46,431 nucleotides of DNA, from assembly GCA_016872175.1 (NCBI GenBank), contig VHBA01000015.1, forward strand, positions 1-46,431, written 5' to 3'. The translations under genes were made by a program, and so were the position numbers. The DNA is from Sphingomonadales bacterium. Its GTDB lineage: Bacteria > Bacteroidota > Bacteroidia > NS11-12g > UBA955. Positions 22,133 through 46,431 of the stretch are shown piece after piece; within the stretch, counting starts at the first letter, position 1, and the number at the start of each line of letters is the position of its first letter. A model generated the notes under the pieces. It ran no database searches. It saw only the letters and a list, made by a program, of their open reading frames with translations, and was not told the DNA's origin.

Positions 22133-22137
22133 CGGTG

Positions 22138-23223
22138 ATGCGCTTATTGATTTTCTGTTTTTTTCTCACGGCATTAACCACAGTTGATGCCCAACCTTAC
22201 AAGGTTCCTGAAGAAATCAGAACACGATATTACTACCAGCCCGGCGACAGTGTTATTGTTTCAGAAAAACCCGCATCGGCACTGACCAAAGTTTTAAAAG
22301 GATGGAAATACCTTGCACCGGACAGTATCCGTGTGGAACCTACAGAAGGTTATGACACTATTCTGGGCTTGTATCACTACGATTTTAAATCTAAACATGG
22401 CGGTTTCTTTTATTTGCCAACGGAAGTGAGTAATGGGGCCTACCGCAAATTCGTGCAGTCAAGCCGCAACCCAATGTACACACCTGATACCAATTGCTGG
22501 ATTGGTTCAAAAATGTACAGCGAGCCCTTTTCTCACTATTATTTTCAGCACCCTGCATACAACAATTACCCTGTTTGCGGTGTATCATTTGAGCAGGCAA
22601 AAGCCTATTGCTACTGGCTGCAAGACAGTTTAAACCGGTTCTTAAAAAATAAGAATATAAAGCAACGTGTGGAAGTAGATTTGCCGAGCTCAGATGAGTG
22701 GATTCATATTTATTACCATGCAGTCAATCAATATGCCCAACAACACAAATTAAAATTACCCAAACCCAGCTACCTTCGGTTTGCCTCACCTGGCAACCAA
22801 AACAGGGTTATTTCAGGACCTTGGTACAGTGCAAGACAGGCAACCATCAATCCTGAACTTTTTGACTATTTTGTTTACACCGCTGAAACCAAAGGTGTTG
22901 AGCCTATTGGCGGTGTTTACCATATCATGGGTAATGTGGCTGAATGGACCCGAAGTTCGGCGCAAAACCATCTTTTCAATGAGAAGGAAACTATCTATAC
23001 TGTTACAGGCCGTTTGACGCCCAACGTATACGAAACACACAGCCAAAGCACTTTAGATAAATATGTCAGGGGTGAAAAACTAAATGATTTAATGGTAATA
23101 AAAGGCGGTTCCTGGTTTGATGACCCATATTATCTGCAGCCCGGGGCCTTGTATTTTCAAAATAAAAATAAGGGCAAGGCCAATATTGGCTTCAGGCCTA
23201 TTATTCGGGTGGTTAAACCTTAA
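22138..23223 (+). CDS. SUMF1/FGE-fold secreted protein, GldK/GldJ-like
   Basis: The 361-residue protein has a signal peptide (MRLLIFCFFLTALTTVDA) and then a formylglycine-generating-enzyme fold: FYLPTEVSNGAYRKFVQ near 95, YPVCGVSFEQAKAYCYWLQ near 145, MGNVAEWTRSS near 262, and the closing IKGGSWFDD ... IGFRPIIRV. The paired cysteines that make true FGE catalytic, which lie between the GGS and GFR motifs, are missing here (PYYLQPGALYFQ instead). A structural role like that of GldJ/GldK in the gliding/T9SS machinery is therefore more likely than sulfatase activation. It lacks the lipobox of GldJ and GldK, so I assign no symbol. Start ATG 22138 is preferred to GTG 22135. Its stop overlaps that of lysA. 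Confidence 0.8.
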   Translation: MRLLIFCFFLTALTTVDAQPYKVPEEIRTRYYYQPGDSVIVSEKPASALTKVLKGWKYLAPDSIRVEPTEGYDTILGLYHYDFKSKHGGFFYLPTEVSNGAYRKFVQSSRNPMYTPDTNCWIGSKMYSEPFSHYYFQHPAYNNYPVCGVSFEQAKAYCYWLQDSLNRFLKNKNIKQRVEVDLPSSDEWIHIYYHAVNQYAQQHKLKLPKPSYLRFASPGNQNRVISGPWYSARQATINPELFDYFVYTAETKGVEPIGGVYHIMGNVAEWTRSSAQNHLFNEKETIYTVTGRLTPNVYETHSQSTLDKYVRGEKLNDLMVIKGGSWFDDPYYLQPGALYFQNKNKGKANIGFRPIIRVVKP

Positions 23224-35223: not shown

Positions 35224-37344
35224 TCAGCGCATCAACACTATACTGCCCTTGATGGAATTGCGGCGTACGCGGCTACCCACCGGCATCTCGTACTGAAACA
35301 CATAGTGATAAACACCTTCCTTGCAATCCTGTTCAGCTGTTTTTCCATTCCACTGATAAACGCCTTTATCGCGGCTGTCAAACACTTTCCCGCCCCAGCG
35401 ATCATAAATCAGCATCAATATAGGTTTGCCACCACGAACAAAGATTTGAAAATCGTTGTTTTTATCGTCGTTATTGGGTGTAAAGGCAGTGGGAATAAAC
35501 AGATCACATAATTCTTCCTGATAACGAACAGTTACCGCATCAGTAGCCACACCACAAGGGTTAGTTACTGTAACACTATAGTTTCCTGCTTTGGTTACAT
35601 AAATCACCGAATCGGTTTGCCCGGTGCTCCACTGATAGCGGCTTTGGGGCCATGTTGCGGTAAGCTTCAGCATACCGCCACGACACAGCAGTGTATCTGA
35701 TGGAAGCACTACGATAGGCGCATCACCCAAAAAAATCTTCAGTGAATCTGCCCACAAACAGCCCAAATCATCTACACTGGCTCCAAACACCCCACCAGAA
35801 CTTACGGTAATTGAATTACCAGACTGACCTGTACTCCACGCTACTGTTCCTGGCGTCGTTACATTCAGTGTAAGACTGCTGCCATTACACAGATTTGTAT
35901 CACGCCCTAAATTGAATTTAGGTAATGGATGAACTTTAATATTAGCGATGGTAGAATCGGGACAATCTGAATCGGGTATTGTATATTTTACCGTATAATT
36001 ACCCGGAGGTGAACATTTAAATGAGTTTCCGGAAACCGGACCACCCGAAAAAAGACCACCAGGCGTTCCTGGTACCATGGTAATTAGCGGTGAATTTTCA
36101 CAGGCGAAGCTGGGGAGTCCTGTAAATGCAGCAGAAACATTGGGTCTCACACGCACGTAAACGGCATCTGTGCTGGAGCAGCCTTCTTTGCTTCGTGCAC
36201 TGTGAATAACCCTGTAAACGCCGGTATCTGCATACGTGTGGGTAGCATTCTGCAGGGTTGATGAATCTCCATCACCAAAGTACCAGCGATAATAGACCAG
36301 GTTATTGGTAGCATTCTGAAAAGTAAAACTGTTGTTTTTTAGACACTGCACAGAGTCATTTATTTTAAGGCCGCTGCTGGGATCGGCAATCACACGCACA
36401 AAAATGGCTGCAGTATCTGTACAGCCCGTGCTAAAGACATTACCATTCAGGCCATATGTAGTTTCACTTCTAAAAAATATTCGAAATTTACCTGCACTTG
36501 TAAAATACCTGTCAGGGTTTGGAAACGTTGTGCTATCGGCACCACCCAAATACCACATCACCTTTTTACCACAGCGTGGGATGGCAGGAATGGTTGTTTT
36601 ATCTTCAAAATAGAAATGATTGCCTTTCAGACACTGAGCGGTATCCCAGTTTCTAACCGTCGGATTGCTTTTGGGCCTCGGAACAATAAATACGCTGGTG
36701 GGAGTTGTATAATTATTGTTACAACCCAATGAAGGTGATGCAATCAGCTGAACGGCATAGTTACCGCCGGCATTATAGGTGTAGTTGACGTTTACCCCTG
36801 TATCCTTATTGCCGTCTCGGTAAAGCCAGGTGTAAGTTATCCATCCAAAACTGGCCTGGGATTTATTGGTAAAAGTAACTTTGTTTGTTTTTTCACAGCT
36901 GTCTGTGCGGCTGAAACTAAAGTCCAGCTTTAAGGAATGCGTAGTAAATGACAAGCTGGCTGACTTTGAAGTAAGGTAATCAGGTGCAATTCCGTCATGC
37001 TCAAAAACAGTAAAATGGTATGTTGTTCCGGGTATCAGTCCTGTTATGGTAACACTATTGCCAATATTGTCATAAACCACATAGTTGCCGGTACCAATTT
37101 GGGAACCTGCACCAAATGCAGAAAACGCTGTGTATTTGGTTCCATCGGCTGGAACAGCATCTACGGCGCTGCCTTGTTTCATGAGAATGGTACACCATGC
37201 GCCATTACCCTTGGTAAAGGTTAGATTAACCGCAATACATGTAAGACCTCCATATTGCAGATTACTTGCGGGAACTGTAGGCTCTGCAGCCTTTAACCGG
37301 GTAAACCCGGAGAACAGAACCGCAAGTAAAATGAGCAAACGCAT
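35224..37344 (-). CDS. T9SS cargo protein with FN3-like and PKD domains and type-B C-terminal sorting domain
   Basis: I start at ATG 37344 (706 residues), which gives the signal peptide MRLLILLAVLFSGFTRLKA; the longer frame begins at an upstream codon before the predicted transcript start. A fibronectin-III-like domain (about 20-140, ending TGLIPGTTYHFTVFEHDG) is followed by several PKD-type domains (YRWYFGDGDSSTLQNATHTYADTGVYRVI is a clear example). The end is a gliding-motility-associated/type-B sorting domain: FIPTAFTPNNDDKNNDF, then YDRWGGKVFDS and YHYVFQYEM (about 617-706). Such proteins are exported by T9SS and act as surface adhesins or secreted structural proteins. No PorP/SprF gene is next to this one. 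Confidence 0.92.
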   Translation of the reverse strand: MRLLILLAVLFSGFTRLKAAEPTVPASNLQYGGLTCIAVNLTFTKGNGAWCTILMKQGSAVDAVPADGTKYTAFSAFGAGSQIGTGNYVVYDNIGNSVTITGLIPGTTYHFTVFEHDGIAPDYLTSKSASLSFTTHSLKLDFSFSRTDSCEKTNKVTFTNKSQASFGWITYTWLYRDGNKDTGVNVNYTYNAGGNYAVQLIASPSLGCNNNYTTPTSVFIVPRPKSNPTVRNWDTAQCLKGNHFYFEDKTTIPAIPRCGKKVMWYLGGADSTTFPNPDRYFTSAGKFRIFFRSETTYGLNGNVFSTGCTDTAAIFVRVIADPSSGLKINDSVQCLKNNSFTFQNATNNLVYYRWYFGDGDSSTLQNATHTYADTGVYRVIHSARSKEGCSSTDAVYVRVRPNVSAAFTGLPSFACENSPLITMVPGTPGGLFSGGPVSGNSFKCSPPGNYTVKYTIPDSDCPDSTIANIKVHPLPKFNLGRDTNLCNGSSLTLNVTTPGTVAWSTGQSGNSITVSSGGVFGASVDDLGCLWADSLKIFLGDAPIVVLPSDTLLCRGGMLKLTATWPQSRYQWSTGQTDSVIYVTKAGNYSVTVTNPCGVATDAVTVRYQEELCDLFIPTAFTPNNDDKNNDFQIFVRGGKPILMLIYDRWGGKVFDSRDKGVYQWNGKTAEQDCKEGVYHYVFQYEMPVGSRVRRNSIKGSIVLMR

Positions 37345-37357
37345 GGGCAAGTTTTGG

Positions 37358-37365
37358 CAAAGATA
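37358..37365 (-). promoter_or_regulatory. -7 element (TATCTTTG) of the T9SS cargo gene
   Basis: A perfect TAnnTTTG on the minus strand, 13 nt before ATG 37344. It favours this start over the upstream in-frame codon at 37377. No TTG is seen 19-21 nt upstream. Confidence 0.45.
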
Positions 37366-37468
37366 ACGTCTATACACCGCGTTTTCAGGCTTATTCGCTA
37401 CAACATGGACAATTGCTGCAAAGTTTTGGTTGCCTCAAAATGATATTTATAACGCAAACAACTGCTAA

Positions 37469-41226: not shown

Positions 41227-42113
41227 TGGTTAGCCGTAAAAAAATAGCTTTTCTTATCAATCCCGAAGCTGGAAATGCAGCAGTACGCAGGAAAGGAAAA
41301 GAGATGGCCAGCGCTTTAAAATCAATGGGGGGATACTCACTCTTTGAAACTGGTTCACCGGAAGAACTACTGGAATTAACCCACGACCTGGCAACAAAGA
41401 ATTATCGCGCTGTTTTTGCCTGTGGCGGTGACGGAACCCTTCACCTGGTTAGCAGTCAGCTGACAGGAACCGAAACTGCTATGGGAGTTATACCCTTGGG
41501 CTCCGGCAATGGATATGCCAGACACCACCGTATTTCCCTTAAATGGGAGGAAGCCGTAAAAGTTGCCGAAAACCCGGTAGTTTCGGTCAGAGACACTGCC
41601 CTGTTTAATGGGAACCATTTCCTGAACATTGCCGGAATTGGCTATGCGGCAAAAATAAGTCATGCGTTTAAGCGCGAGGAACACAGAGGTTTGAGTGGCT
41701 ATGTGAAAACCATATTTAAAAATCTAAAAATGGATGCCTTTAACACCCGTATAACCAATGAATATGCTAAGTGGGAAGGGAAAGTATGGATGGTAGACTT
41801 TTGCAATGGTAGTCAGTGGGGCAATAATTTCAGGGTTGATCCCTCAGCAAGAGATGATGACGGAAGCTTAACAGCAGTAGTTTTCAGAAAGGCAAACCGG
41901 TTAAAACTCCCGGCAATTGGTTTTAGGCTGGCAACAGGCTCCATTAACAGAAGTCCGGATATTTACCGAATTTCAGGCAGTAAGTTTATCATTGAATTTG
42001 ACGGCAAGCGCCCGCTTCATTTAGACGGTGAACCTGCAGGAGTAATTGAAGCATCAGCTGAAATTGAGGTTATACCTAAAAGCCTTATTGTATGGACCCC
42101 GGACTCAAAATAA
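41226..42113 (+). CDS. Diacylglycerol kinase-family lipid kinase (YegS/DagK-like)
   Basis: The 295-residue protein belongs to the DAGK catalytic family. The start KIAFLINPEAGN matches the NP.AG nucleotide loop, CGGDGTLHLV at about 60-69 is the GGDGT motif that binds ATP, and PLGSGNGYARH follows near 86-96. The C-terminal half has the LHLDGEPAG segment seen in YegS-like enzymes. It phosphorylates a lipid such as diacylglycerol or a long-chain base; the choice cannot be made from sequence, and Bacteroidota make sphingolipids, so the latter is possible. Its end overlaps the start of nnr by 22 nt. Confidence 0.92.
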   Translation: MVSRKKIAFLINPEAGNAAVRRKGKEMASALKSMGGYSLFETGSPEELLELTHDLATKNYRAVFACGGDGTLHLVSSQLTGTETAMGVIPLGSGNGYARHHRISLKWEEAVKVAENPVVSVRDTALFNGNHFLNIAGIGYAAKISHAFKREEHRGLSGYVKTIFKNLKMDAFNTRITNEYAKWEGKVWMVDFCNGSQWGNNFRVDPSARDDDGSLTAVVFRKANRLKLPAIGFRLATGSINRSPDIYRISGSKFIIEFDGKRPLHLDGEPAGVIEASAEIEVIPKSLIVWTPDSK

Positions 42114-43522
42114 TCACATTTTCAGAAAGTAAAGAATGTGACGCGCTGACAATAAAAAATGAAGGTATGCGAGCGCATGACCTAATGGACAGGGCAACCC
42201 TGCGCATTTTTCAGCGTCTGCTTTGTTTAATTCCAAATAACAAATCCATTACAGTACTATGCGGCCCCGGGAATAACGGTGCAGACGGTTTGTGCCTTGC
42301 TTCTATGCTTGCTGTTAAGGGTTACGATGTAGAAACCAAAATTTGCCTGCTTGATAAAACCCCTTCTGCATCTCTGACCTTCAGGTTGTCCCTGTATAGT
42401 CAGCAACAGTCGGTTAACATACAAATTACAGAAGATGCCAAAGCTCTTGTTATTTCCAAAAACAGGATTATTGTTGACGCTCTTTTTGGCACAGGACTGC
42501 AACAACCATTGCAGCATAAATGGCAGGCATTGATTGACACTATAAACAACTCGGGCTGTGAAGTCTTTTCTATAGACATGCCAAGCGGATTATTGGATAA
42601 TTCAGACAGCATGAACATGCCTTTTATCAATGCCAAAAAGGTTCTTACAATCCAATGTCCAAAACCTTCCTTACTTTACCCAGAGTTTAAAATTGATTTT
42701 GAAGTATTAGATTGCGGAATTGAAACAGAAACCATAATCACAAACCATTACTTTTTAAACTATCCTGATTCGCAGGTAAAAAAACAAATGGCGCTGATAT
42801 TGCCTAGAAGACCAAAGCATAGCCATAAAGGAACTTTCGGCCACACATTGCTTATTGGAGGCAATTCAGGTATGCACGGTGCAATAGCCATGGCTGCAAA
42901 ATCATGTTACGAATCAGGAAGTGGTTTGACAACCGTGCTCTCTCCGGAAGGCACTTTGCCTTTCCTGTCTGCCACTCCTGAGATTATGCATATTCCTCAC
43001 AAACTCAATGAAGAAGCAATTTCAACCTTACCCCTTGATAAATTCAAATCAATAGCGTTGGGGCCAGGATTGGGAAACACCCCGGAAACATGCAGATTGA
43101 TGGCAGATGCATTGAAAAGATTCCGGATACCCCTAATTCTCGATGCGGATGCATTAAACATAATAGCATCTAGAACTGAACTGCTTAATATCATACCTGA
43201 AGGCAGTTTGCTAACTCCTCATCCTGCAGAATTCGAAAGATTGTTTGGTCACACCAAAAGCGGGAAACAAAAGGAAGATATTGCCGTTCAAAAAAGCCAA
43301 GAATTGGGCGTTTACATCCTTGCCAAAAACACCTATAGTTTGCTGGCTTGCCCGGATGGAAAAGTATTTTACAACGGAACAGGTGATTCTAAACTTGCCA
43401 GAGGTGGAAGTGGTGACAAACTAACCGGAATAATTGCAGGATTATTCGCACAGAATCAAAACATGAGAGACGCTGCCCTTGCGGGCATGTATTATTCGGG
43501 TCTCGGCCGGCTGGTTATTTAA
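42092..43522 (+). CDS. nnr: Bifunctional NAD(P)H-hydrate repair enzyme Nnr (epimerase + dehydratase)
   Basis: The 476-residue protein fuses two repair activities for damaged NADH/NADPH. The N-terminal NnrE-type epimerase (about 1-220) shows LCGPGNNGADGLCLA near 56-70, DALFGTGL near 130 and DMPSGLLDN. The C-terminal NnrD-type ADP/ATP-dependent dehydratase (about 235-476) shows KGTFGHTLLIGGNSGMHGA, ALGPGLGN, LDADALNI, LTPHPAEFERLFG and ARGGSGDKLTGIIAGL. The start, ATG 42092, lies 22 nt inside the preceding gene; the next methionine would remove conserved sequence. The stop overlaps that of convergent porP by 8 nt. Confidence 0.95.
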   Translation: MDPGLKIITFSESKECDALTIKNEGMRAHDLMDRATLRIFQRLLCLIPNNKSITVLCGPGNNGADGLCLASMLAVKGYDVETKICLLDKTPSASLTFRLSLYSQQQSVNIQITEDAKALVISKNRIIVDALFGTGLQQPLQHKWQALIDTINNSGCEVFSIDMPSGLLDNSDSMNMPFINAKKVLTIQCPKPSLLYPEFKIDFEVLDCGIETETIITNHYFLNYPDSQVKKQMALILPRRPKHSHKGTFGHTLLIGGNSGMHGAIAMAAKSCYESGSGLTTVLSPEGTLPFLSATPEIMHIPHKLNEEAISTLPLDKFKSIALGPGLGNTPETCRLMADALKRFRIPLILDADALNIIASRTELLNIIPEGSLLTPHPAEFERLFGHTKSGKQKEDIAVQKSQELGVYILAKNTYSLLACPDGKVFYNGTGDSKLARGGSGDKLTGIIAGLFAQNQNMRDAALAGMYYSGLGRLVI

Positions 43523-44804
43523 CCTCTCTAACCCAGGCTTGTGAAAGGCCTACTTCAGAGCTTAACAGAAAGCGATCAGCCTCATTGCGCGTCTTAAAGT
43601 ATTTCACAAACACATAATAGCTTTTGTTTTTATGATCAAAATACTTGAATGAGAACTGGTCATTTATGTAAAGATTTTTAATCATCTTATTGGCTTTTCC
43701 CTCATCAGAACTTACACCTGTCACAATGTAAAATCCGGGAACAGCCTTAGCATTACTGTCAAGTTTTGCAATGGTAATACCTGCTGTGTCTATACCCAGA
43801 CCTGACTCTATAAAACCTGGAAGATTTGTTACAGTAATCTGTACCTTGCGTCTTTCGTTTGGATTTTCAACAGGAGAAACTGTCTCTTCTTCTGCAGCAG
43901 ATGTACCTCTTCCCAGTCCAATGGTAAAGAAAAATTCATGACCATTACCCAACACCTCTCTCGATTTTCCGGTGGGATACATAAATGCATAACCCAGGCG
44001 GGTACCTCCACCTAGATCCGCACCCATGTTGGCGCCAAATTGAGATGCATCATTTCCTGAGAAACCAAACCAGAATTTATCATCGTATTTAGCATTGATA
44101 TTTAGCTGGCTTCTGTAGTTTTTAAAATCCCACAAGGTCACGTTAGCCATAGGCTGAATCTTCATTTTTTCACCTACTTCAAAAGAGTAACCCAACAACA
44201 CATTAGAAACATTTTGCAGGTTGTATTCAGCCTTATAGTTGAAATAGCTGTAATCAAACCTGGGCTTGGGTAAACGGCTGGTAGAAACACCAAACATGAG
44301 ACCTTTGTTTGCATAATATGCAGAGGCACGTAAATCAGCACGGTTAACAGCAGGGCTAAAAATCAGTGAGTTAATTACCGGATCATTTGCATGAATATAT
44401 ACAGCCTTGCTTGGATCAAAACTTTGATTCATAAAACCAAGCGAAACACCCATGCTCAGGCTGCTTTCTTCACTAAAAGGAATTTTATATGCGTATGAAA
44501 CATAAGCATTCTGCAACTTGCTGAATCCTGCATTTTCATTGAGATAAAAAACGCCGAATGTAGTGCGCTCATTGGGCAATGGCAAGACTATATTGGCAAG
44601 CATGTTTTGAGGTGTTCCCTGCACCGCAGAGTATATGCGGTTAAAGAACATGGAAGCAGTAGCCTTTTTCTGCGCAGACATCGCAGCGGGATTAATCACG
44701 GAAGGATCCAGGAAGAACTGATCTATGCGCGAACTCATTTGAGCACCGGCATGTCCGGAAATACCCATAAACACCAGGATGAGGGAGTATTTTGTAATTT
44801 TCAC
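43515..44804 (-). CDS. PorP/SprF-family outer-membrane protein with C-terminal SPOR-like domain
   Basis: The 429-residue protein starts with a signal peptide (about 1-21). A PorP/SprF barrel follows (about 23-300): QFFLDPSVINPAAMSAQ is the family start, and ATASMFFNRIYSAVQGTPQN and the closing EFFFTIGLG strand fit. After an acidic linker (301-354) comes an SPOR-like module at 355-429 (PGFYIVTGVSSDEGKANKMI, YYVFVKYFKTRNEADRF, ending AWVREVK). SPOR domains bind denuded glycan strands, so the tail may hold the barrel to peptidoglycan. Usual PorP/SprF proteins are about 300-340 residues. It starts 4 nt after a T9SS cargo gene, like the SprB-SprF pairs in which SprF serves the export or surface anchoring of its partner. 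Confidence 0.9.
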   Translation of the reverse strand: MKITKYSLILVFMGISGHAGAQMSSRIDQFFLDPSVINPAAMSAQKKATASMFFNRIYSAVQGTPQNMLANIVLPLPNERTTFGVFYLNENAGFSKLQNAYVSYAYKIPFSEESSLSMGVSLGFMNQSFDPSKAVYIHANDPVINSLIFSPAVNRADLRASAYYANKGLMFGVSTSRLPKPRFDYSYFNYKAEYNLQNVSNVLLGYSFEVGEKMKIQPMANVTLWDFKNYRSQLNINAKYDDKFWFGFSGNDASQFGANMGADLGGGTRLGYAFMYPTGKSREVLGNGHEFFFTIGLGRGTSAAEEETVSPVENPNERRKVQITVTNLPGFIESGLGIDTAGITIAKLDSNAKAVPGFYIVTGVSSDEGKANKMIKNLYINDQFSFKYFDHKNKSYYVFVKYFKTRNEADRFLLSSEVGLSQAWVREVK

Positions 44805-44808
44805 AGGA

Positions 44809-46431
44809 TTATCGTATTACGTGGATGAAACCTTTTAATTCAGACTGATTGCCTCTGTGGTGCAGCAGGTAATAATAAATACCGTCGGGAAGCTCTCTAT
44901 TACTCTTATCAACAGCATTCCAGTCATTAAGATAGTTATTATTTTCGTATACAACCTTACCGGAATAATCCACTATAGTTAGGTCATATAAATCAAGATC
45001 TTTTAGTTCTTTTACATCCCAAACATCATTATCTCCATCTCCGTTTGGTGTAATAATATTGGGGATACGGGTAAATGGTGGATCGATAACAGTTACTGTG
45101 ACTGTATCATTATCTGAACAACCTGCAGAACTGCTGCCTGAAACGACATAAGTTCTGGTCTTCAAGGTTGATGATTTAACTACTGACCCTGTCGTGGCGT
45201 TAAGTGCAGTGGCAGGGCTCCATGTGTAGTTTAAAGCACCGGTAGCACGCAGTGTGGCAATACCACCCCTGTATATGGTTGTATCTGAGAATGCTGTTAC
45301 ATTTACTTTAGGATAAACCAATACTGTGTCGTCAGCTTCTACAAAACAAAGCGGCCCATTGTAAGCCCTTACACGATATCTTATGGCTGTCTTAAATACC
45401 TTGGTTCTGTTTGTATCATTATCATTCAACCATACAATATTGGTTCCGCCATTTGCCCTTACTTTTAGACTATCGCCAACACAGAAAGGTGAACTACCGG
45501 TAAGGTTAAAGGTCAGATTGGGATATGTAGTGAATGTATAGTTTTTAGTAATTGAGTCTGTGCAACCTTCAGCTGTGGTTAATACATAGGTAACTGTGAA
45601 CGGTCCAGTACTGTTTAGGAACAATTTGGCAGGTGAATTGGCTGACGCATTGGCACCATTCACTTTCCACATGCGGCTGGCGATGGCGGAACTTGCTGTT
45701 ACGGCAGAATCAGAGAAAATTATACTGTCAGGAACGCAATTCCCTGATTTGGTGAAATTAAGGGTTAGCGTACCTTTTACTCTGTATGTATTGCTGGCAC
45801 TGTCCACACAACCCTTGTCAGTAATAGCAATCAACGTTACCTTATAGTTGCCGACAGCGGCATAAGAGTGCACACTGTCTTTGAGAATATCTGTAGCACC
45901 ATCACCCCATTTCCAGGTGGCAGCAGCTATGGTTTGAGACTGGGTAGTACCAAGGGTTGGGAAAGAAGTAAACTTATTGTTTTTAAGACACTGCGTTTGT
46001 GTATTTCCGGCAATACCAGGATCCAAAACAAACCCCATTAACGGGAGGCCAAATACAGTGAAGGTTTTGGTAATGCTGTCCCGGCATCCATTAGTTGTGA
46101 TGCCATACAATGTTGCGGAATGAGATCCTATTGTGGTAAATTTCTTTTTTGCGGCAGTATCACCTGCTATGCCGGATCCATCAGCTTTCCATGACCAGCT
46201 AATTTGATTATCGGGCGGATTGGTATTGGCCACCCGGTTAAAACGGGCAGTATCTGATATACAGATATTATTGGCAGTAAAAGCAGGCACCGGCAAGCCA
46301 TGCACAGTAAAGGTTTTGGTTACACTATCCTTACAACCCTGTATTGACGTGCCCTTCAACTCAACACTATGAGAACCTGCACTGCTGAATTTAAATTTAA
46401 ACGCAGTATCGGTGCTTGTGGTAACCCCGTC
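44809..46431 (-). CDS. T9SS cargo protein with PKD repeats and type-B sorting domain, C-terminal part
   Basis: The reading frame stays open to the window edge at 46431, so the 5' end is missing; about 540 residues are visible. The sequence is a series of PKD/Ig-like repeats of about 80-90 residues, each with a CxDSxTK(T/N) phrase such as GCRDSITKTFTVFGLP and GCTDSITKNYTF, and AATWKWGDGATDILKDSVHSY in one. The C-terminus is a gliding-motility-associated type-B domain: RIPNIITPNGDGDNDVW, then LTIVDYSGKVVYE and PDGIYYYLLHH. It should be a large surface protein exported by T9SS. porP/sprF follows after 4 nt, which suggests a dedicated pair. Confidence 0.92.
   Translation of the reverse strand, partial: DGVTTSTDTAFKFKFSSAGSHSVELKGTSIQGCKDSVTKTFTVHGLPVPAFTANNICISDTARFNRVANTNPPDNQISWSWKADGSGIAGDTAAKKKFTTIGSHSATLYGITTNGCRDSITKTFTVFGLPLMGFVLDPGIAGNTQTQCLKNNKFTSFPTLGTTQSQTIAAATWKWGDGATDILKDSVHSYAAVGNYKVTLIAITDKGCVDSASNTYRVKGTLTLNFTKSGNCVPDSIIFSDSAVTASSAIASRMWKVNGANASANSPAKLFLNSTGPFTVTYVLTTAEGCTDSITKNYTFTTYPNLTFNLTGSSPFCVGDSLKVRANGGTNIVWLNDNDTNRTKVFKTAIRYRVRAYNGPLCFVEADDTVLVYPKVNVTAFSDTTIYRGGIATLRATGALNYTWSPATALNATTGSVVKSSTLKTRTYVVSGSSSAGCSDNDTVTVTVIDPPFTRIPNIITPNGDGDNDVWDVKELKDLDLYDLTIVDYSGKVVYENNNYLNDWNAVDKSNRELPDGIYYYLLHHRGNQSELKGFIHVIR

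Follow-up and report, generated by a model that had tools for sequence, protein, structure and literature searches.

What might a SPOR-fold domain do at the end of an outer-membrane barrel whose gene directly follows that of a protein exported by the type IX secretion system (T9SS)? The question is raised by a PorP/SprF-type shuttle gene near one end of the window, by which we mean the whole stretch of 46,431 nucleotides analysed here. We examined the shuttle's tail, its spread among relatives and its relation to PorE, a separate protein that serves as wall anchor for other shuttles.

The shuttle, its tail and its cargo

The features of the locus are collected in Table 1. As originally predicted, a PorP/SprF barrel gene lies 4 nt behind a PKD-repeat T9SS cargo gene. 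More specifically, the Pfam family PorP_SprF matches residues 20-294 of the window protein at E 7.1e-36 (124.6 bits, cut-off 22.3), and the upstream gene is assigned to the type-B T9SS cargo by TIGR04131 at 45.5 bits against a cut-off of 35. The gap between the two genes measures 4 or 5 nt in all six congeners opened (L099-L104). At its other end the shuttle gene shares 8 nt with a convergent gene (42092-43522) encoding YjeF_N and NAD(P)H-hydrate dehydratase domains. The PKD repeats, together with the intact cargo frames of four congeners (979-1,153 aa), make it plausible that the cargo is a filamentous adhesin.

Table 1. Features of the cargo-shuttle locus in the window.
Feature	Position	Strand	Evidence
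PorP/SprF-type barrel gene with C-terminal SPOR-fold domain, 429 aa	43515..44804	(-)	TIGR03519 137.5 bits, cut-off 90.55
Probable signal peptide, residues 1-22, ending AQ	44739..44804	(-)	Translation, by eye
14-strand outer-membrane barrel (predicted), residues 20-294	43923..44747	(-)	PF11751 E 7.1e-36; AF2; Foldseek
Putative periplasmic linker, residues 297-356, with conserved D-T motif (339-340)	43737..43916	(-)	Alignment of relatives; AF2
SPOR-fold domain (predicted), residues 356-429	43518..43739	(-)	Pfam, AF2, Foldseek, VIA-align, PDB profile search
4-nt gap, cargo stop to shuttle start	44805..44808	(-)	ORF coordinates
Type-B T9SS cargo gene, PKD repeats, 540 codons present, cut by the contig end	44809..46431	(-)	PKD_4, CHU_C, TIGR04131
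Type-B sorting domain of the cargo (CHU_C / TIGR04131)	44812..45069	(-)	Pfam, NCBIfam

AF2 models the barrel with 14 strands, the number stated for PorP and SprF (PMC9143113), and Foldseek matches it to OmpG, FadL and the T9SS complex chain 8gl6_F; the mean pLDDT of the full-protein model is 76.3. Summed by hand over this model, the loops comprise 64 residues on the side opposite the termini and 23 on the termini side. This distribution, with the longer loops opposite the termini, is the one expected if both termini are periplasmic, and the C-tail of SprF is described as periplasmic (PMC12635249). The modelled topology thus supports a periplasmic C-terminus for the shuttle. A C-terminus outside the cell, which would have spoken against the original prediction, was considered and rejected on the even strand number of the AF2 model.

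The original prediction had read residues 355-429 as a SPOR domain. In a scan of the whole protein, Pfam SPOR (PF05036) matches residues 357-413 at E 0.003 with 18.3 bits, the Pfam cut-off being 21; with the tail scanned alone, the score rises to 21.2 bits (72 aa) or 22.7 bits (74 aa, E 1.2e-4). The NCBIfam scan of the window protein contains no SPOR match. When 29 PorP tails were scanned one by one, 21 gave a SPOR match at E<=0.01 (the best at 6.7e-14), and the remaining Pfam matches were to two families, each represented once. Searched against PDB sequences, a profile built from 23 diverse PorP tails places CwlC (E 1.8e-4) and FtsN (E 0.0054) first and second, and another wide tail set (A5) had CwlC on top (E 0.012); with the 19 closest tails alone, no SPOR match was found among the PDB sequences.

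In the full-protein AF2 model, residues 357-428 fold as beta-alpha-beta-beta-alpha-beta, and residues 317-429 modelled alone reach a pLDDT of 89.5 and a pTM of 0.80 (62-74 for the remaining four models). The top Foldseek match of the tail is the SPOR domain of CwlC (1x60) at E 4.5e-3, with no match reaching E 0.001. VIA-align lists an exported protein, 6ozd_A, in row 1 (Z 7.4) and SPOR domains in rows 2-6 (DedD, CwlC, RlpA twice and DamX; Z 3.9-5.9). Since no structure reaches Z 8, the fold evidence is modest when taken alone. Taking the borderline sequence score and the confidently predicted fold together, we regard the last 74 residues of the shuttle as a SPOR-type domain, much as first proposed. 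The acidic linker proposed to precede it stood in part: this segment is strongly acidic in several relatives but only mildly so in the window (residues 297-356). Within it, D339 and T340 are invariant in 19 relatives.

The host genome has three PorP-type genes: that of the SPOR-tailed shuttle; L050, directly before GldK; and L049, which is divergent from PorU, ends in a two-Cys tail and has a GldK/GldJ-type gene behind it. Because the same genome encodes 23 type-B sorting domains (21 of them over the cut-off) against only these three PorP-type genes, the window shuttle may, judging from gene counts, serve more cargo than its neighbour. A second type-B cargo gene in the window (35224-37377(-), 717 aa, PKD, TIGR04131 35.5 bits) has no PorP-type frame beside it within the window. 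Elsewhere in the window, 22135-23223(+) encodes a protein with an FGE-sulfatase-like domain (E 1.6e-20), the fold family of GldJ/GldK.

Tailed shuttles among relatives, and PorE

Each of the six congeners in the relatives search has the fusion, and a PorP with either a SPOR or an OmpA tail occurs in at least 25 of the 39 genomes which that search covered (hand tally). A scan of GTDB contigs returned 27 named loci, all from metagenome-assembled Bacteroidota by title and some, again by title, from Lake Baikal or a pond; a cargo frame lies directly upstream in 25 of the 26 loci opened, and in L118 the cargo frame overlaps the shuttle. PorP-SPOR frames occur in at least 10 of the 296 genomes of a phylum sample (the window's own, seven of one family and two of another), a lower bound because part of the matches was opened and the cut frame L127 is uncounted. 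The tail occurs in two families of the order and in two more families within the class. Its forms vary, with short linkers, coiled coils, TSP_3-type repeats, tandem SPOR domains, or OmpA replacing SPOR. The 1,164-aa PorP frame L173:1181-4675(+) has an 864-aa tail, largely a low-complexity Ala/Lys/Glu-rich stretch with a SPOR-like domain at its end. Within the genus, the SPOR part differs between the window and L051 by 12 amino-acid changes, a small number, against 24 silent ones; in the comparison with the remaining four congeners, silent sites have reached saturation. A chance fusion or an assembly artefact was considered and rejected, given the recurrence of the same fusion in many assemblies.

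The survey of tailed PorP/SprF frames and their upstream genes that the original prediction had suggested comprised 129 PorP-type frames, a non-random set drawn from loci similar to the window protein, from rows chosen among the matches listed, of 108 genomes, and from SPOR-positive rows of the 296-genome phylum sample. Omitted were 12 repeat-contig loci, the tail fragment L125, and the short cuts L001-L030 and L126-L155, several of which were re-fetched longer. SPOR-like tails number 80, the class being defined by an HMM iterated from A5 (75, 76, 80 and 80 frames) and including at least one member, L043, with no Pfam SPOR match at E<=0.01; 11 frames have an OmpA tail and 38 have neither. A type-B cargo gene precedes 79 of the 91 tailed frames, and 55 of these 79 lie 0-15 nt behind it.

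PorE-like frames were sought on the same strand within 2 kb on both sides of all 129 frames. None accompanies the 79 tailed type-B-linked frames, against 17 of the 21 tailless type-B-linked frames, a count whose positives include the four loci from which the PorE HMM was built. The window's shuttle itself has no adjacent PorE-like gene. Judged by this gene content, the SPOR or OmpA tail thus looks as if it took the place of PorE in cis. The Fisher p of 2e-15, from a 75 v 21 table restricted to frames with 1,000 nt or more downstream, which drops four tailed frames, overstates the evidence, as the barrel tree offers one independent pair. On this tree there are two label changes for SPOR and one for OmpA; since tails arose few times, the contrast is not statistically independent, and the independent-pairs test, with its single pair, gives no decision either way.

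PorE-like frames do lie within 2 kb of two of the 12 tailed frames that have no type-B cargo, L174 and L215. These are upstream PorE-core-like frames of 423 aa (L174:6570-7841(-)) and 420 aa (L215) with no OmpA match, arranged as if the wall domain had shifted from PorE to PorP. The tailed frame L061 is followed, 262 nt downstream, by an OmpA-domain gene of 212 aa.

The OmpA-tailed shuttles of the same order (11 frames) share with the window the barrel family, the position of the tail and the cargo-shuttle gene pair, and differ from it in carrying an OmpA domain in place of SPOR. Their upstream cargo is mostly about 2,000 aa or longer (10 of 11, contig-cut ones included). The six OmpA tails inspected all keep the segments H-[TA]-D and L-S-x-[RK]-R, the OmpA cell-wall-binding signature.

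What the SPOR-fold tail may bind

We hypothesize that the type-B PKD-repeat cargo and the PorP/SprF shuttle form a cognate pair. The cargo would exit the translocon bound to the barrel through its C-terminal domain and remain with the barrel on the surface, while the shuttle's periplasmic linker and SPOR-fold domain would hold the complex to the cell wall and so anchor the cargo statically. Effectively, the SPOR tail would perform within one chain the task attributed, for other PorP shuttles, to the separate lipoprotein PorE with its OmpA domain. We hold this proposal as a whole with moderate confidence. Shuttle function, cargo binding and the periplasmic C-tail rest on published PorP/SprF work; we infer that the SPOR domain attaches to peptidoglycan and that the cargo does not move.

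Among the closest known arrangements is PorP-PorE-PG1035 of Porphyromonas gingivalis, in which a barrel of the PorP family keeps a type-B cargo at the surface and is connected to the wall on the periplasmic side; there the link is a separate lipoprotein, PorE, with an OmpA-like domain, whereas the window would use a SPOR fold in the barrel's own chain (PMC9143113). In the SprF-SprB system of Flavobacterium johnsoniae (PMC12635249, PMC12618676), as at this locus, the shuttle gene lies directly behind the type-B cargo gene; a periplasmic C-tail decides the attachment of SprF and would do so here. The Cys-X-Cys tail of SprF is bonded to the moving GldK track, whereas the window tail lacks this track-linked motif, contains no Cys at all and ends in a SPOR fold. 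Recent work proposes that the shuttle decides the fate of the cargo, with PorE as a separate wall anchor and PorP-PorE pairs static and wall-linked (PMC9143113, PMC12618676); the proposed split is PorP with PorE static and SprF without PorE mobile (PMC9143113, PMC12618676, PMC12635249). Among the matches listed in a search of openly available journal articles, no paper on a PorP-SPOR or SprF-SPOR fusion was found; the one article that brings SPOR domains together with type IX secretion concerns, by its title, a type 2 system.

Wall attachment of a cargo-specific barrel, as originally proposed, fits because an OmpA domain occupies the same place in sister shuttles and because of the cis/trans contrast with PorE; these observations suggest that the SPOR-fold tail ties a surface protein to the cell wall. 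Counting against it are the few events behind that contrast, the PorE-core-like frames upstream of L174 and L215, the OmpA-domain gene downstream of L061, the PorE-like genes elsewhere in the window's genome (L098 and L091), a PorE-like protein with both a SPOR and an OmpA domain (L172), the whole-protein Pfam score below the cut-off, and the absence of a glycan-contacting residue. Like the SPOR domains of RlpA, DamX, FtsN, DedD and CwlC (PF05036; PMC6895207), the window's domain has the predicted fold, the length and a weak but consistent sequence similarity; unlike them, it is fused to a T9SS barrel rather than found in a division or cell-wall protein, and does not keep the conserved Gln and basic patch through which studied SPOR domains contact glycan (PMC6895207). 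The Gln (Q270 of RlpA) corresponds to V361 in the window, and none of 85 PorP-linked SPOR domains has Gln at this position (56 V, 26 I, and one each of C, T and M). Two Arg positions, in our own alignment, are mostly Tyr/Phe in the PorP-linked domains, and are Y and F in the window.

The missing Gln and the replacement of the basic patch by aromatics speak for a rival reading, in which the SPOR-fold domain would have lost glycan binding and would serve as a docking module for a periplasmic partner that then places the cargo; candidates would be a PorE encoded elsewhere, GldK, the PorK/N ring or some other protein of the envelope. Pointing in the same direction are the PorE-like genes elsewhere in the genome, the PorE-core-like frames upstream of L174 and L215, and a PorE-like protein, L172:4887-7676(+), which is encoded directly behind a tailless PorP and combines PD40, carboxypeptidase-regulatory and OmpA domains with an extra SPOR domain of this kind near its N-terminus. 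The OmpA domain at the same position in sister shuttles argues against docking, as does the Trp at the start of strand 4, which is kept in 74 of the 85 PorP-linked domains; DamX requires a Trp in strand 4 (PMC6895207). The Gln is absent, by eye, from three other Bacteroidota SPOR proteins as well (L140, L170 and L089), so that Gln-less SPOR domains may be a habit of the phylum and the absence may not mean loss of binding. We regard a docking role as less likely than wall anchoring, but as a real alternative.

The SPOR tail could also send shuttle and cargo to the division site by binding denuded septal glycan, as FtsN, DamX and RlpA do: the predicted fold resembles SPOR domains of septal proteins, and the SPOR proteins known so far function in division or morphogenesis (PMC6895207). 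The denuded-glycan contacts are not conserved in the tail, however, and an FtsX-type gene among the neighbours at 38-44 kb has nothing to link it to the cargo-shuttle pair. Sister shuttles, moreover, use OmpA, which is not known to be septum-specific. Division-site targeting, one of the roles first envisaged, found no evidence in our analysis and seems to us quite improbable. That the tail is a chance extension with no function, as the weak Pfam score of the window's own protein might hint, is already contradicted by its conservation across the families of order and class named above and by the few amino-acid changes within the genus, and we give this reading hardly any credence.

Shuttle tails and the fate of cargo

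Shuttles with neither a SPOR nor an OmpA tail have recurrent ends of their own. PR[YF]F, followed by no more than one residue, closes all 17 PorE-linked tailless shuttles (L075, L076, L081, L172, L176 and L178-L189) but none of the 112 other PorP frames, a contrast to which the caution about few events applies as well. From sequence, PR[YF]F is a candidate PorE-recognition end. In six tailless PorP frames, including L049:6183-7196(-), L042, L190 and L191, the short tail holds two Cys about 12-13 residues apart, and a GldK/GldJ-type gene lies just behind four of the six. These tails are reminiscent of the Cys tail of SprF, but their spacing is not Cys-X-Cys.

Tentatively, and with more doubt than conviction, we suggest that the C-terminal tail of PorP/SprF proteins may act as an address code for type-B cargo, in which Cys would direct the shuttle to the moving GldK/GldJ track, PR[YF]F to a neighbouring PorE, and SPOR or OmpA directly to the wall. 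If this were true, the final residues of a shuttle could reveal what becomes of the surface protein that it serves.

The wall-anchor proposal touches the open question of whether a type-B T9SS cargo is stationary or is carried along by the gliding track. When the shuttle has a built-in tail of the SPOR or OmpA type, its role in cargo fate becomes testable by adding or removing a single domain, and cargo fate would become predictable from sequence. Furthermore, the tail places the SPOR fold in protein secretion, and raises the question of what such a fold binds without its usual Gln.
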